IMG/VR virus record: IMGVR_UViG_3300026484_000283
Span: 1-20,827 of that record
Length of the DNA: 20,827 nt
Strand: one strand, 5' to 3'
DNA from: a virus
Shown here: positions 3,014 to 19,142 of the stretch, one piece after another
Layout: each line of letters begins with the position of its first letter
How positions within the stretch are numbered: the stretch's first letter is position 1
Position numbers and translations under genes: made by a program
The notes under the pieces: generated by a model
The model's database searches: none
What the model was told of the DNA's origin: nothing
What the model saw: the letters and a program-made list of their open reading frames with translations, nothing else

Positions 3014-4174
3014 ATGCCAACATTTAATGGAATGTCAGCAGCAGATTTTTTATCTACTGCTGATGAGAAAGTAGCTTATAGTAAATCAGTAACTAGAGAT
3101 TCTATGAGAAAGTCAAAAATCAAGCCTTTTATCGCTACTAGCGAAGATGATACAACAAGTGTATTTAAAGTTGTTCTTAAAACACTTGAAAAAGGAAGTG
3201 TGGTAGCGATAGAGTTAGAAGATTCTCTTACTCAAAGTGGTGCTGTTGGCGATGTTGATTTCTCTGCAAGTGCAGAAGAGATTAAAAAAATAAAACAATT
3301 TATCCCTATTGATGGGTGGCAACACTCCGTACCATCAAGTACAAACATTGTAAATAGAAGAAACTCTGATAAGTTTAAGACTGGTGCAACAAAGTCATTA
3401 ACAACGTGGGGAACTATGAAGTTTGATAAAGTTGCTATTTCTGCTTTAAGTGCAGATTGTACTAATATCGTAGTTTGTGGTCACCATTCGGACTCAACAC
3501 CTACAAATCTTATCAAAGAAGATGTACTTACAACGTCTGATGTTGAAGAGGCAAAAAATAGAGCTTCACTAGGTTTAGATGCTTCTGGTAATGCTACTGT
3601 TCCACCATTACTTCCTGTATCAACAACTCAAAATGAAAACCTTGGTTACTATGATGAAGTTGAATTTTTTATTATGTTTGTTGGTACAAATTCAGCTAGA
3701 AATATTAAAAATGATGCCAACTGGGCAGAAGCTAGAAAAGATGCTCTTGAGAGAGGAAAAACAAACCCTATCTTTAGTGGTGCGTTAGGTTTTCACGATG
3801 GTGTTCTTTTACTCAATATGAAAACACACACTGACCGTGATGCAGGTATACTTACTTCAAAAAGTAAATTTACTGGATTTGGTGGTGTAAAAAAGAGCGA
3901 CCTTAGCATTTATGCAGGTGGAGATGGTCAAGAAACAGAGATTAACCTTTTTGTTGGTGCTGGTGCTGGTTATATAGTTGTTGATCAAGGCATAGCTCTT
4001 TATGATTGGGCTGATGCTAAAGACCCTCGTAGAATGCATGCGGGGATAGATAGAGTATATGGTTTAGCAAAAACAAAATACAAAGCAAGTTCAAATGATG
4101 GCATCTTAGAGGGTTCTATTTTTGATAATAAAGATTATGCTGTTATTGCAGTTGTAGCTTCTACGGGTAAATAA
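3014..4174 (+). CDS. Major capsid protein, N4-gp56 / DUF4043-like
   Basis: 386 residues. The strongest signature is at about 237-264, where W..A..DA.ERG is followed by NPIFSGALGFHDGVLL, the conserved block of the N4-gp56-type (DUF4043) capsid family. A glycine-rich INLFVGAGAGY block follows near 310-320. A basic N-terminal region leads into alternating beta-type segments, and the length fits the family. It is the shell subunit of the head, placed after the scaffold-like gene and before connector genes. AAGGAA precedes ATG 3014. A TACAAT at 2992-2997 could be part of a dedicated promoter between the hairpin and the gene, but that is weak. Confidence 0.8.
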   Translation: MPTFNGMSAADFLSTADEKVAYSKSVTRDSMRKSKIKPFIATSEDDTTSVFKVVLKTLEKGSVVAIELEDSLTQSGAVGDVDFSASAEEIKKIKQFIPIDGWQHSVPSSTNIVNRRNSDKFKTGATKSLTTWGTMKFDKVAISALSADCTNIVVCGHHSDSTPTNLIKEDVLTTSDVEEAKNRASLGLDASGNATVPPLLPVSTTQNENLGYYDEVEFFIMFVGTNSARNIKNDANWAEARKDALERGKTNPIFSGALGFHDGVLLLNMKTHTDRDAGILTSKSKFTGFGGVKKSDLSIYAGGDGQETEINLFVGAGAGYIVVDQGIALYDWADAKDPRRMHAGIDRVYGLAKTKYKASSNDGILEGSIFDNKDYAVIAVVASTGK

Positions 4175-4183
4175 GGAAAACAG

Positions 4184-4573
4184 ATGGCAATTATAGTAAA
4201 AAGAAAAAAATTAGAGATTAGAGATACTGGAACAGTAACTTATGAAATAACAGGTAGTGCCAATGTTGGTAAAACTATTGACTTTATGGGTATCGCAGAG
4301 GGGTTTCGTGTTGTAGATGTAAACGTAACAGTAGATGAAGCTTTTGCAAATGATGATAACAAAGTATCAGTTGGTATAGAGGGTGATTTTGAAAGATTTA
4401 TACCTTTAACTACTATTGATGCAGTCAAAGGTATAGCATTTAATAACCGTCAATTATCAGCTAGTCAATCTATGGCTATTGTTGTAGATGTTGCTGGAAC
4501 AGCTAGTGCAGTTGGTAAAGCTACTGTTACTGTTTCTTATGTTAAACATCAAGTATCAAGACAAGATTACTAG
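4184..4573 (+). CDS. Possible capsid decoration or stabilisation protein
   Basis: 129 residues dominated by short alternating hydrophobic stretches rich in Val, Ile, Ala and Thr, suggesting an all-beta fold, with no membrane segment or signal peptide. It starts 9 nt after the capsid gene (AAGGAAAACAG before ATG) and its stop abuts the next start. A small beta protein directly after the major capsid gene is commonly a decoration (cement) protein. No specific family is recognised, so this is an inference from fold style and position. Confidence 0.5.
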   Translation: MAIIVKRKKLEIRDTGTVTYEITGSANVGKTIDFMGIAEGFRVVDVNVTVDEAFANDDNKVSVGIEGDFERFIPLTTIDAVKGIAFNNRQLSASQSMAIVVDVAGTASAVGKATVTVSYVKHQVSRQDY

Positions 4574-9099: not shown

Positions 9100-9981
9100 T
9101 CAATTATTAGCAAGTCTAAACCCATCATCAACAGCTTCTTGTTCTGATTCAAGATACCTATCTCCTTTTTTTATATTTATTTTTATTCTATCATAGTTAG
9201 CATTACATGGTAGATGATAAATCATACTCTCTTTTTTACATTTAATGAGTGGATACTCCACAGAATACTGTTTTATGAAATGTTCAATATTATGTAATTT
9301 CAGATATTCTCTTGCTCTATCATCAAGATTATCATAGCTTGTAACAAGCATAGCATGTACTTTAATATTAGGATTTTCTAGTGCATAAGTCGCACTGTCT
9401 CCAACAAGTTGAGCGATAGTGTTTGAATGTATCTGATGTTTTTGAGCATAGTTTTTACACTGTATAAGAAGATGAGTTTTTTTATCTTTAATAATCAAAT
9501 CTATACCATCATCTTGAAGTTTTTTATAGATTCCATTATATGAGACATTCATACCTCGTTGCTCATAGATATAGCCTATTTGTCTTTCGTATCTTGCACC
9601 TATCTTTTCTGAACTACGGTTTAGTTTTTTGTCTCTGTAATTTTCAATGCAGTTATTTAACCTTTCTTCTTTCTTTCTTTTTTTCTCTTCAATTTCTTCT
9701 CTTTGCCTTGTAATATCATTATCTCTTTGCTGAATGATTTTTTGGTATTCTATTTGTTTTAGTTTTTTTTCTTTTTTAATGATATAAGATGATTTAAGTT
9801 GTTTGTTTCTTGCAATAACTATATCTAACTTGTTAATAAGTCTCTCTTGCTCATCTTTTAAATCTTTACTTCTTAATATCTTTTTATCATATAAAAATTC
9901 TACTAAATATTCAGTAGATTTTATATATAACAGTATTATTATGACAATCAAAATAATAGCAATAAGTATTACTTCAGACAT
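9100..9981 (-). CDS. Membrane-anchored Mrr-like (PD-(D/E)xK) nuclease
   Basis: 293 residues in four parts. Residues 3-20 are an N-terminal membrane helix of Ile/Leu/Val. About 38-120 is a highly charged coiled coil. About 126-235 is a restriction-endonuclease-like core with Glu132 (ARYERQIGY), Asp158-Gly-Ile-Asp161 and Gln174-Cys-Lys176, the Mrr-type active site. A C-terminal segment (YHLP at 255, Cys259, SEQEAVDDGFRLA at 279-291) resembles the small Ada-like tail of some phage and bacterial nucleases. All catalytic positions are present, so it should be active. A membrane-tethered nuclease inside a lysogeny operon suggests defence against incoming DNA; the target is unknown. It follows a small membrane ORF with stop and start abutting (TAAATG). 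Confidence 0.75.
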   Translation of the reverse strand: MSEVILIAIILIVIIILLYIKSTEYLVEFLYDKKILRSKDLKDEQERLINKLDIVIARNKQLKSSYIIKKEKKLKQIEYQKIIQQRDNDITRQREEIEEKKRKKEERLNNCIENYRDKKLNRSSEKIGARYERQIGYIYEQRGMNVSYNGIYKKLQDDGIDLIIKDKKTHLLIQCKNYAQKHQIHSNTIAQLVGDSATYALENPNIKVHAMLVTSYDNLDDRAREYLKLHNIEHFIKQYSVEYPLIKCKKESMIYHLPCNANYDRIKINIKKGDRYLESEQEAVDDGFRLANN

Positions 9982-10171: not shown

Positions 10172-10393
10172 TTACCCATCAAAAACCCCCACATCCCTCA
10201 AAGTCTGTTTTAGTTTTTCATGTTTACATTTTTCTATATAATTTTCTAACCAAGATTTCACCCAACCTGGTACTGGCTTTTTTTCATCGTTCCAATTTCC
10301 AATATTACTATATGCTGAATTTGTTAAATTTGCAAACTCTTGTCTAGTTAAATTTATATCTTTTAATAATTTATCAAATTCTTTCTTTTTCAC
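10172..10393 (-). CDS. Small HTH DNA-binding protein (repressor/Cro-like), paralogue 2
   Basis: 73 residues. Nearly all of it is a lambda-repressor-like helix-turn-helix fold: FDKLLKDINLTRQEFANLTN (6-25), then the recognition-helix region SAYSNIGNWNDEKKPVPGWV and WLENYI. It aligns over most of its length with the HTH protein at 11360-11572 (shared FxKLLK, LTxxEF, WVxSWLENYI), so the two are paralogues from duplication. It could control the operators near 11657-11736 or its own operon. It lacks the peptidase or oligomerisation domain of a CI-type repressor, as expected for this short family. A UUUUAG hairpin lies in its leader. Confidence 0.7.
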   Translation of the reverse strand: MKKKEFDKLLKDINLTRQEFANLTNSAYSNIGNWNDEKKPVPGWVKSWLENYIEKCKHEKLKQTLRDVGVFDG

Positions 10394-10414
10394 TCTTTAA
10401 ACCCCTAAAAATAG

Positions 10415-10440
10415 ACTTCTCGCCCTAAAAGGCGAAAAGT
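10415..10440 (-). promoter_or_regulatory. Leader hairpin 3 with UUUUAG loop
   Basis: In the leftward RNA the stem pairs 10440-10431 with 10424-10415, with one C-A mismatch (10419/10436), around the hexaloop UUUUAG (10430-10425) closed by C-G. It lies 7 nt after the stop of the zinc-ribbon gene and about 21 nt before the HTH gene start. The loop and closing pair are identical to those of the two other hairpins in this operon while the stem bases differ. Confidence 0.7.
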
Positions 10441-10447
10441 AAAATCA

Positions 10448-10801
10448 TCATTTTTTTTCATGTAGTTTATGATATTCTCTTATCGCTACTTCTTCACCAA
10501 GTTTATTTGCCGTAGCTAACCATATTAAAGCTTCTTTTCTATAAAAAGAATAATCACAAGATGAGCATTTGAATTTTGCAGTTTGATAATTTGGCTTTTC
10601 CCCCACAGAGATGCTAGAGCCTTCAAAATAATTTGTAATACCTGCTTTTTTATACTCTTCGTATCGTTCTAAATCTTCTTTAGTAGCTTTTTTATCTTTT
10701 GAATGTAACTTATACATTCCACAATTTGGACATCTTGTAGCAAATCCATTGTATGTAAAAAAAAGAACTGCACCTAAAACAATTAATATAATAATTTCCA
10801 T
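10448..10801 (-). CDS. Membrane protein with zinc ribbon, unknown function
   Basis: 117 residues. One N-terminal membrane helix (2-17, Ile/Leu/Val/Phe-rich) is followed by Cys24-Pro-Asn-Cys27 and, after a charged spacer, Cys79-Ser-Ser-Cys82. These two CxxC knuckles should bind one zinc ion in the cytoplasm. Residues 85-117 form a helix. No family beyond a generic zinc ribbon is recognised. AAAGGGG precedes ATG 10801. Upstream lie a UUUUAG hairpin and several TATAAT-like boxes, so it may have its own promoter. Its place in a leftward lysogeny module suggests superinfection exclusion or a host-modifying role; this is inference. Confidence 0.65.
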   Translation of the reverse strand: MEIIILIVLGAVLFFTYNGFATRCPNCGMYKLHSKDKKATKEDLERYEEYKKAGITNYFEGSSISVGEKPNYQTAKFKCSSCDYSFYRKEALIWLATANKLGEEVAIREYHKLHEKK

Positions 10802-10832
10802 TGCCTAACCCCTTTATGTAATGTAGTTTGTT

Positions 10833-10856
10833 GCATTTAACCTAAAAGTTAAATGC
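10833..10856 (-). promoter_or_regulatory. Leader hairpin 2 with UUUUAG loop
   Basis: In the leftward RNA, GCATTTAAC (10856-10848) pairs perfectly over 9 bp with GTTAAATGC (10841-10833) around the hexaloop TTTTAG. It lies about 32 nt before the start of the zinc-ribbon membrane gene. The 3' arm contains an ATG (10836) opening an 18-codon frame that overlaps the gene start; this may be chance. Confidence 0.8.
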
Positions 10857-10871
10857 TAATAATATATTGAT

Positions 10872-10909
10872 TTTATACAGAAATTATAATAAAAACTCTT
10901 TAAATTATA
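10872..10909 (-). promoter_or_regulatory. Candidate leftward promoter(s) for the zinc-ribbon gene
   Basis: Three -10-like boxes read leftward: TATAAT at 10909-10904, TATAAT at 10888-10883 and TATAAA at 10877-10872 (preceded by CTG). None has a clear -35 box, which is common in Campylobacterota. A start from the last box would put the UUUUAG hairpin about 9 nt into the transcript, similar to the arrangement at 11595-11638. Confidence 0.35.
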
Positions 10910-10940
10910 GTTTCAGATTTGATATAACTCCCTCTCTTAA

Positions 10941-11363
10941 CTAATCATCTAATTCTCTTTTATATGCTATTTCCTCTTTGTGTTCTCTATAAATAAAGCT
11001 ATTTATATACATTATTATGACAATAATAATAAAGGGCAATAAAAACCAACCGTTTCCATCTTCAAAATACAGATATGTTAGAAGTACATAAGAAGGAGTT
11101 GCTATATATTCACTTCCTTGAGCATAATCAACTTTATAATTCAAAGCTTCTTCATATAAAACAGCATACGGTTCAGCAAAACTTATAAAGAATAAACTTA
11201 TTGTAAGTTCATTTATATGCATAATTTCAACAATATCCCACCATTCCATACCATTGTCATATCCGAATAATTTACTAGCTAAGTATGTTATATAAGCAGA
11301 TACAATTGGAGTAAAGAAGAGTAATACCGCTCTAAAATACCATTTCATTCTACTTCTTTTCAC
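10941..11363 (-). CDS. Multi-spanning membrane protein, unknown function
   Basis: 140 residues. The basic start (MKRSRMK) is followed by hydrophobic segments at about 9-30, 48-66, 88-100 and 106-125, giving three or four membrane passes and a charged cytoplasmic end (REHKEEIAYKRELDD). The positive N-terminus suggests it faces the cytoplasm. ATG 11363 overlaps the stop of the HTH gene (ATGA-type), so the two are translated together. No family is recognised. Being co-expressed with the putative repressor it should be made in the lysogen, which would suit an exclusion or defence protein, but that is inference. Confidence 0.65.
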   Translation of the reverse strand: MKRSRMKWYFRAVLLFFTPIVSAYITYLASKLFGYDNGMEWWDIVEIMHINELTISLFFISFAEPYAVLYEEALNYKVDYAQGSEYIATPSYVLLTYLYFEDGNGWFLLPFIIIVIIMYINSFIYREHKEEIAYKRELDD

Positions 11364-11572
11364 TTAATATAAGGCTTCATAGTCTCAGCAACTTTATCCA
11401 TATCTTTTGCTTTGATATAGTTTTCTAACCAACTTTCTACCCATTTAGGTATATTTATTTTTGAACTTCCCCAAGTATTCACTGTATTGTAATTCAAATC
11501 AATTACTTCACAAAACTCTTTTTTTGTTAAACTTGCTTGTTTTAATAATTTGTTAAATTCTTCTCTAGTCAT
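11360..11572 (-). CDS. Small HTH DNA-binding protein, likely lysogeny regulator, paralogue 1
   Basis: 70 residues, lambda-repressor-like helix-turn-helix: FNKLLKQASLTKKEFCEVID (6-25), then NYNTVNTWGSSKINIPKWV and WLENYIKAKD. It is the first gene leftward from the divergent control region, where a phage repressor usually sits. It is opposite the antirepressor operon and next to three 16-bp operators. It is paralogous to the 73-residue protein at 10172-10393. It is shorter than typical CI repressors and has no peptidase domain, so induction would rely on the antirepressor rather than RecA-driven cleavage (inference). Its transcript has a UUUUAG hairpin near the 5' end. Confidence 0.7.
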   Translation of the reverse strand: MTREEFNKLLKQASLTKKEFCEVIDLNYNTVNTWGSSKINIPKWVESWLENYIKAKDMDKVAETMKPYIK

Positions 11573-11594
11573 CGTTATAATCCCCTTAAACCTT

Positions 11595-11618
11595 GCATTA
11601 CCCCTAAAAGAGTAATGC
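11595..11618 (-). promoter_or_regulatory. Leader hairpin 1 with UUUUAG loop
   Basis: In the leftward RNA, GCATTAC (11618-11612) pairs with GTAATGC (11601-11595); an inner U-G and a C-G pair extend the stem to 9 bp around the hexaloop TTTTAG. From the -10 box at 11638-11633 the transcript should start near 11626, placing the hairpin about 8 nt from the 5' end. The 3' arm holds an ATG (11598) opening a 7-codon frame (MQGLRGL) that stops 2 nt before the HTH gene start. A GGGG box could serve the main gene. Confidence 0.8.
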
Positions 11619-11632
11619 TTAAATGATATGTA

Positions 11633-11638
11633 ATTATA
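11633..11638 (-). promoter_or_regulatory. Leftward promoter -10 box (lysogeny operon)
   Basis: Read leftward the box is TATAAT preceded by TGC, an extended -10 (TGnTATAAT). The -35 position (about 11656-11661, CATAAC) is poor and overlaps operator copy 1. The promoter would drive the HTH gene and the leftward module and could be regulated by occupancy of that operator. Confidence 0.6.
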
Positions 11639-11656
11639 GCATATAATAGAATATTG

Positions 11657-11736
11657 TTATGTTTTCATAGTATTAAAACTTGACATAGTTATATTTTCAT
11701 AATATAATTCTAAATATATATTATGTTTTCACAATA
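11657..11736 (+). promoter_or_regulatory. Three 16-bp operators at exact 32-bp spacing
   Basis: The copies are TTATGTTTTCATAGTA (11657-11672), TTATATTTTCATAATA (11689-11704) and TTATGTTTTCACAATA (11721-11736). Starts are exactly 32 bp apart, about three helical turns, so bound proteins would sit on the same DNA face. Copy 1 overlaps the leftward -35 region. Copy 2 lies inside the spacer and first -10 bases of the rightward promoter. Copy 3 lies just downstream of that promoter's start. This is the expected layout of a phage repressor operator region. Confidence 0.8.
11680..11708 (+). promoter_or_regulatory. Rightward early promoter with perfect sigma-70 consensus
   Basis: TTGACA at 11680-11685 and TATAAT at 11703-11708 are separated by exactly 17 bp. 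The promoter points to the antirepressor gene 42 nt downstream. Operator copy 2 fills its spacer and overlaps the -10 box, so a bound repressor would exclude RNA polymerase. A full consensus promoter is unusual in this AT-rich DNA and implies that strong repression is needed. Confidence 0.85.
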
Positions 11737-11749
11737 AAAAGGAAAGAAA

Positions 11750-12526
11750 ATGCAAGAACTTATAAAGATAGAAAAAAGAGTAATAGGTACTGAAGATACA
11801 AATTCGGTTATTGCAAGAGAGTTACATAAAACTCTTGAAATAAAAAAACAGTATTCAGATTGGATTAACACTCAAATCAACAGAACTGGTCTTCAAGAAA
11901 ATGTAGATTACATAATTGTATCTCAAAAAGTAGAAGCTGGTAAAGGTGTATCTACTCGTAAAGAGTACATCATAACAACAGACGCAAGTAAACATATAGC
12001 TATGATGAGTCAAGGTGCTAAGGCTAAAGAAGTTCGTGATTATTTTATCGCAGTTGAAAAAGAGTTTACTAGCTCAATCACACCACACCAAGATTTAACA
12101 CCTATTATAGAGATGATAGTAAAGCAAAATGAGATGATGATGAGTTTTATGCAAAATGTAACAGATGCTTTAACTAAACAAAGTGAAACTATTACACAAC
12201 TTGCCAAAACAGTTGAGGAGTTAGCAAACCCTGAGAGAAAAAGACACCAAGAGAGAATAGAGAACTTCAAACTTCTTCACATACAAGTTAAAAACACTGA
12301 AAATGACCCTATAACAACTCTACAAAGAGATAATCTTCGTGATAGTGTGAGTAAGAGAGCTAGGGAACTACAAAGATTTCATAATATGGATACTTCAAAA
12401 ATATCACAAATCATATTTAGTGAACTTAACAAAAAGTTTGCTACAAAAAGTTATGGGCATATAAAGCAAAAAAGCTATGTAGATGCTTGTTTGTATATAA
12501 ATCATTTAGAACTTTTTAACTCTTAA
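11750..12526 (+). CDS. AntA/AntB-type antirepressor
   Basis: 258 residues. Residues about 15-105 match the AntA/AntB antirepressor domain: VIARELHKTLEIKKQYSDWI, NRTGLQENVDYI, KEYIITTDASKHIAMMSQGAKAKEVRDYFI. A Gln/Thr-rich coiled coil follows (about 115-165), then a C-terminal helical domain (about 185-255) resembling the ORF6C type. Such proteins inactivate the phage repressor and trigger lytic growth. It is the first gene behind the operator-controlled consensus promoter, with GGAAAG before the ATG, and it leads an operon with an excisionase-like and a recombinase gene. Being repressed by the protein it antagonises would create a switch (inference). Confidence 0.85.
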   Translation: MQELIKIEKRVIGTEDTNSVIARELHKTLEIKKQYSDWINTQINRTGLQENVDYIIVSQKVEAGKGVSTRKEYIITTDASKHIAMMSQGAKAKEVRDYFIAVEKEFTSSITPHQDLTPIIEMIVKQNEMMMSFMQNVTDALTKQSETITQLAKTVEELANPERKRHQERIENFKLLHIQVKNTENDPITTLQRDNLRDSVSKRARELQRFHNMDTSKISQIIFSELNKKFATKSYGHIKQKSYVDACLYINHLELFNS

Positions 12527-19119: not shown

Positions 19120-19142
19120 GGACACCTAAAAGGACACCTAAA
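19120..19142 (+). repeat. Tandem 12-bp repeat GGACACCTAAA near the prophage end
   Basis: GGACACCTAAA occurs at 19120-19130 and 19132-19142, with a period of 12 bp, 75-97 bp from the tRNA 3' end. Short direct repeats at this distance from a tRNA attachment core are the expected position of arm-type integrase or excisionase sites. That role is inferred from layout only. The rest of 19143-19216 is AT-rich with nothing recognisable. Confidence 0.45.

Follow-up and report, generated by a model that had tools for sequence, protein, structure and literature searches.

A hairpin with a near-fixed loop and a covarying stem ahead of phage HTH genes, very probably an undescribed control element

Three genes of one leftward phage operon are each preceded by a hairpin with the same six-nucleotide loop, which raises the question of whether these hairpins are a selected RNA element and, if they are, what reads it. 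The locus lies in a 20,827-nt virus record (IMGVR_UViG_3300026484_000283; the whole stretch is referred to below as the window). The window looks like a prophage in a Campylobacterota host, since its portal protein shares ∼29–30% identity with Helicobacter prophage portals and it carries a phage integrase-family gene and, from 19415, a gene that we take to be proA-like. An open reading frame at positions 2–610 contains the unit ELAEKIKNGDVSITHTYDDDTGEILTTTYGTGTSKSIYEVQK twice.

The operon (11572–9100) and an AntA-type antirepressor gene at 11750 are divergently oriented; the latter has a sigma-70-type promoter match (12/12) in the intergenic region. A putative promoter of the operon itself, a consensus match only (ATAACA, 16 nt, TATAAT), is at 11633..11660 on the minus strand. 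Three 16-bp direct repeats (TTATGTTTTCATAGTA and variants; 11657..11736), unlike the hairpins in sequence, lie at an exact 32-bp spacing between the antirepressor and HTH promoters and are candidate DNA operators for a repressor. The region is laid out like one that controls lysogeny. Two of the genes behind hairpins encode paralogous Cro/C1-type HTH proteins of the phrog_8898 family, of 70 aa (11360..11572, minus strand) and 73 aa (10172..10393, minus strand, GTG start). The other encodes a 117 aa protein (10448..10801, minus strand) with an N-terminal hydrophobic stretch and a weak Zn-ribbon resemblance, all of its family matches being below cut-off. PADLOC gave no match in the operon. The 293 aa protein at its end (9100–9981) combines a hydrophobic N-terminal stretch with an Mrr_cat_2 nuclease domain and a weak C-terminal match to the "sunset" domain.

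The earlier note had placed three hairpins with a UUUUAG loop closed by C-G ahead of these genes, and all three were confirmed on the minus strand at the coordinates given, with the same loop. The first (w1, 11595..11618) is GCAUUACUC-UUUUAG-GGGUAAUGC, in DNA GCATTACTC-TTTTAG-GGGTAATGC, with a 9-bp stem and covarying homologues; the second (w2, 10833..10856) is GCAUUUAAC-UUUUAG-GUUAAAUGC, in DNA GCATTTAAC-TTTTAG-GTTAAATGC, also of 9 bp; the third (w3, 10415..10440) is ACUUUUCGCC-UUUUAG-GGCGAGAAGU, in DNA ACTTTTCGCC-TTTTAG-GGCGAGAAGT, and its stem is of 10 bp, longer than the five (UCGCC/GGCGA) that had been described. Folding adds one further pair (U-G) to each around a UUUA tetraloop, with z-scores of −3.9 (w1), −3.2 (w2) and −2.8 (w3). 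Among the 15 hairpins of the window with at least 9 bp and a 6-nt loop, only the loop TTTTAG occurs three times, and across 60 dinucleotide shuffles of the window (hairpins of at least 8 bp) never more than two hairpins shared a loop. All three are genuine and non-random. A fourth CTTTTAGG in the window (19125–19132) gave no comparable hairpin on folding.

Each hairpin stands a short distance ahead of its gene: 22 nt for w1 (gene start 11572), 31 nt for w2 (10801) and 21 nt for w3 (10393). The intervening ribosome-binding segments, all on the minus strand, are UUUAAGGGGAUU behind w1 (11579..11590, with a GGG-type Shine-Dalgarno), AAAGGGGUU behind w2 (10807..10815, where the distance from the hairpin is greater than in other copies) and AUUUUUAGGGGUUU behind w3 (10399..10412). 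The predicted operon promoter would place w1 near the 5′ end of the mRNA; w3 begins 8 nt past the stop codon of the preceding gene, where there is no good promoter.

Copies beyond the window element were found on other viral and prophage contigs. Scanning the DNA around relatives of the window HTH proteins revealed this hairpin at the equivalent position in L009, L010, L012, L013, L014 and L020. A covariance model built from 11 copies then matched sites absent from its input in L012 (3812 and 4217), L010 (1782 and 947) and L015 (4217), as well as in L075 and L082; L160, L184 and L130, the last with its loop inverted, came from pattern scanning of the viral collection. A two-motif scan (CTTTTAGG...ATTTTANGGG) returned a single true copy, on the contig of L020. 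Counting the window, its near-identical sister (L008) and L130, the total comes to 22 copies, spread over 15 contigs of viral or prophage origin; 21 distinct copies have the standard orientation, and L130 is the 22nd.

The element is almost confined to viruses, and cellular genomes contributed one copy (L103). A covariance-model search of 397 Campylobacteria genomes, of low sensitivity because few candidates were scored per genome, gave matches in 45 genomes, and L103 was the sole true copy among the matches read; most of the others were discarded as lying within coding sequence or lacking an HTH gene. A strict pattern search of the same 397 genomes found no GCA-type stem and one chance match of the ACTTTT type. 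Some 80 sites on viral contigs that matched the stem in a free-loop pattern scan were also rejected, having mostly AAATTT-like loops and no phrog_8898 gene behind them, and seem to represent some other conserved sequence. The free-loop scan also turned up a palindrome, ACTTTTYCCCAAATTTGGGARAAAGTC, that recurs in many unrelated viral contigs (loci L289–L368, e.g. L291, L296, L299), at some sites in or near antirepressor-like reading frames.

Sixteen copies stand directly upstream of a phrog_8898 HTH gene, with 16–21 nt between hairpin and start codon, and w2 is the only intact copy before a non-HTH gene. The earlier expectation of further copies ahead of small HTH or membrane genes thus holds for HTH genes of one family and fails for a general small-gene leader, the Zn-ribbon-like gene being an exception. 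The 117 aa protein has relatives only on the sister contig (100%) and in one 29% match, which lacks this kind of hairpin, and no relative outside the sister contig carries the element. Duplication of the element has occurred in tandem or along with additional HTH gene copies: L012 and L013 contain extra tandem copies within the leader, while each of the three HTH genes of L010 has its own hairpin, and the phage of L010 also has a near-copy of the L075 element before a decayed HTH gene. Copies at 4217–4266 in both L012 and L015 lie just past an HTH stop codon and lack an HTH gene downstream (in L012 the copy faces a convergent gene), and are likely relics of a lost module. In L130 (676–702), ahead of an HTH gene, an ACTTTT-type outer stem and the ribosome-binding segment are kept and the loop is CUAAAA instead of UUUUAG.

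The claim that a conserved loop on a covarying stem marks a selected RNA element was supported by a gap-free alignment of the 21 standard copies compared with shuffles. Standard pairs filled 88.3% of the pair cells (65.8% in shuffles), 51 cells were altered on both sides (20 in shuffles), and the covariation score was 0.61 (0.22 in shuffles), falling below 0.1 when the 3′ arm was shifted by one column. Two of the five measures (pairs with a double change and pair types) were at or below the shuffles, because nearly every column varies. The clearest case is provided by L012 (three copies) and L013 (two), whose mid-stems read CGC, CCC, AGC, AGC and UCC with matching partners, despite nearly identical HTH proteins. 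Even in these copies serving the same regulator, the outer arm is conserved and the mid-arm is free yet complementary; across the family the outer arms are partly conserved as AGCAYT or ACTTTT. Stems in homologous leaders are thus kept through compensatory changes, not disrupted without compensation. The inner-stem counts (four G-U against six A-C) do not single out the RNA strand as the folding strand.

The exact loop and closing pair of the window copies do not extend to the family, which is characterized by a stem of 9–11 bp and a near-fixed apex C-[U/C]-UUU-[A/U]. Its invariant positions are C10 and U12–14, with U or C at position 11 and A or U at position 15, and the UUU[A/U] loop is closed by U-G (13 copies), U-A (4) or C-G (2), being unpaired in the remaining 2 of the 21. 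The center is asymmetric, and its orientation is constant in 21 of the 22 copies. We know of no earlier account of such a loop: Rfam 15 gave no match above the gathering threshold in the window, and none was found in the literature searched, in agreement with the earlier note. Judged from these sequence comparisons, the hairpin is very probably an undescribed control element for the synthesis of the HTH regulator.

The segment from hairpin to start codon has the common reading AUUUUANGGG(R)UU. A GGG-type Shine-Dalgarno is present in 14 of the 16 hairpin leaders versus 17 of the 119 other leaders of phrog_8898 genes (p = 6e-9, uncorrected for relatedness of the sequences). The loop (UUUUAGG) resembles the ribosome-binding segment (UUUUANGGG), a resemblance that may or may not be meaningful. 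Putative −10 boxes lie mostly 21–26 nt upstream of the hairpin, and the predicted accessibility of the ribosome-binding site is variable (0.16–0.77). Inspection by eye showed base-pairing between the 5′ arm and the Shine-Dalgarno to be no general feature. Upstream of 3195 in L160, repeats of ACAACATWTAGATA, unlike the hairpin, surround the promoter and are likely DNA operators.

The phrog_8898 family is found in 150 of the 397 Campylobacteria genomes sampled, and the hairpin in only 16 of ∼140 distinct HTH genes examined. In an HTH tree of 61 columns (poorly resolved), the hairpin-bearing proteins are scattered among close relatives without a hairpin, so that the element seems to come and go more freely than the HTH gene. 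Close homologues in L011 and L035 have no hairpin, which means that the protein does not require it. Leader hairpins of L015, L016, L023, L024 and L037 are centered on AUUUUAAAU and may form a related class. In L015, the leader of the HTH gene that starts at 4001 has four tandem hairpins (∼3850–3990) with UUUAAA-type centers and two alternating arm types.

The fixed distance to the ribosome-binding site, a predicted promoter usually 21–26 nt upstream, a fixed loop and a free stem are all compatible with an RNA operator acting on translation. We tentatively propose, as a reading that is quite possible, that the hairpin and the GGG-type segment constitute a two-part RNA operator for translational autoregulation of the HTH protein. 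The hairpin in the mRNA would be bound by a protein that reads both loop and structure, and a protein sitting beside the Shine-Dalgarno would keep the 30S subunit off. The likeliest ligand would be the encoded HTH protein or a paralogue from the same phage, the former being the most economical choice given that the downstream gene is nearly constant and is duplicated together with the element. The regulator would then limit its own synthesis post-transcriptionally, on top of control at the separate promoter-proximal DNA repeats, and in the window both HTH paralogues would be joined with the Zn-ribbon-like gene in one small post-transcriptional regulon. That in some of the phages a minimal Cro-like HTH protein of ∼70 aa binds the UUU[A/U]-loop hairpin of its own mRNA, as a new family of RNA operators, is a possibility that we hold with more reserve.

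The main rival to the HTH protein as ligand is a different RNA-binding factor: a host protein, the ribosome or another phage protein acting in trans would raise or lower translation, with the HTH gene as mere cargo. The same loop stands ahead of diverged HTH proteins and once (w2) ahead of a different gene, and it is inverted in L130, all of which speaks against the HTH ligand; the many HTH leaders without a hairpin and the tight placement beside the ribosome-binding site also suit another factor. On the other hand, the coupling is almost exclusive to one HTH family, and a host factor should have host targets, while the element is nearly absent from the host genomes sampled (by a low-sensitivity search). 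We regard such a factor as somewhat unlikely.

An unlikely reading is that of a DNA palindrome serving as operator for an HTH dimer, with the hairpin a by-product of its symmetry. Inverted repeats are the usual targets of HTH dimers, and the partly conserved outer arms, the A-C mismatches (no rarer than G-U) and the inverted center of L130 are all consistent with it. However, mid-arms differ and stay complementary among copies serving the same protein, the center is asymmetric and in one orientation in 21 of the 22 copies, and the copies sit on the downstream side of the predicted promoter, a constant distance ahead of the start codon; the promoter-side repeats (11657–11736) are better candidates for such operators.

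It is quite improbable that the hairpin acts as a 5′ stabilizer, blocking 5′-dependent decay and leaving the ribosome-binding site free. The distance from the predicted −10 boxes would indeed put it near the 5′ end, but a plain stabilizer needs no fixed loop, w3 follows a stop codon with no good promoter, and the tandem copies would be left unexplained. The odds are poorer for a loop targeted by an antisense or other trans-acting RNA, even though UUUA matches the YUNR U-turn pattern of kissing loops, the loop is conserved on variable stems, and the CUAAAA of L130 is the exact complement of UUUUAG: the window holds no hairpin with a complementary loop except the antisense of the copies themselves, nor any evidence of an antisense promoter. 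An intrinsic terminator or attenuator between the operon genes is highly improbable, as such an element calls for a G+C-rich stem with a U-run immediately behind it: w3 was the only window copy to score terminator-like in a scan, and the U-run is missing there in w1, in w2 and in most relatives.

For the RNA operator that we favor, the nearest precedent is Aca2: Birkholz et al. (2024, Nature 631:670) reportedly described its RNA-level autoregulation in the acrIF8–aca2 operon of Pectobacterium phage ZF40. The two systems share a phage HTH regulator, an mRNA-leader hairpin near the ribosome-binding site and separate promoter DNA repeats. They differ in that no anti-CRISPR gene was recognized in the window, RNA binding is putative here, and the present HTH proteins, of ∼70 aa, are not detectably homologous to Aca2, an RNA-binding HTH protein (PMC11239489, PMC12456014) of 116–124 aa with its own dimerization domain (PMC8434428). 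Aca2 was absent from the matches (E 1 or lower) of a profile search with the HTH protein. In an AlphaFold2 model of the 73 aa protein (pLDDT 83), Aca2 was among the structural neighbors (TM 0.63–0.70, E 0.36 and above), as were many other HTH proteins to a similar degree; the structural matches were weak overall (E 0.2 and above) and included many ordinary HTH proteins.

Two other systems invite comparison. In cluster K mycobacteriophages, some genes carry a conserved segment (SAS) where translation starts, in roughly half of the cases with an inverted repeat (ESAS) just upstream, and a link to translation initiation has been proposed; ESAS has conserved 17-bp arms and a variable spacer of 4–13 bp and precedes many gene families (PMC3203893). 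The present element likewise marks the start of a subset of phage genes with an inverted repeat upstream, but it has a fixed spacer (the loop), covarying arms and one gene family. Neither the 13-bp SAS GGGATAGGAGCCC nor the conserved 17-bp arms occur in the leaders read here. The MS2/R17 coat protein hairpin is an RNA operator that includes the start codon and has the coat protein as its ligand. It resembles our element as a short hairpin beside the ribosome-binding site, with key loop letters and a covarying stem; in contrast, the present hairpin ends ∼20 nt upstream of the start codon and its ligand is only putative.

The binding of RNA by phage HTH repressors has been recognized only recently and has, to our knowledge, essentially one well-characterized case, and RNA-level regulation in Campylobacterota has been little studied. 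The element is a covariation-supported candidate for another RNA-binding lineage of phage HTH proteins, and it comes with built-in controls in its tandem operators, natural hairpin-less variants and inverted-loop variant. If the proposal is correct, an HTH lineage separate from Aca2 would practice autoregulation at the RNA level and would have been duplicated as operator-plus-gene modules; if the ligand is other than the HTH protein, the hairpin would still be a regulatory RNA motif, hitherto undescribed, of Campylobacterota viruses.
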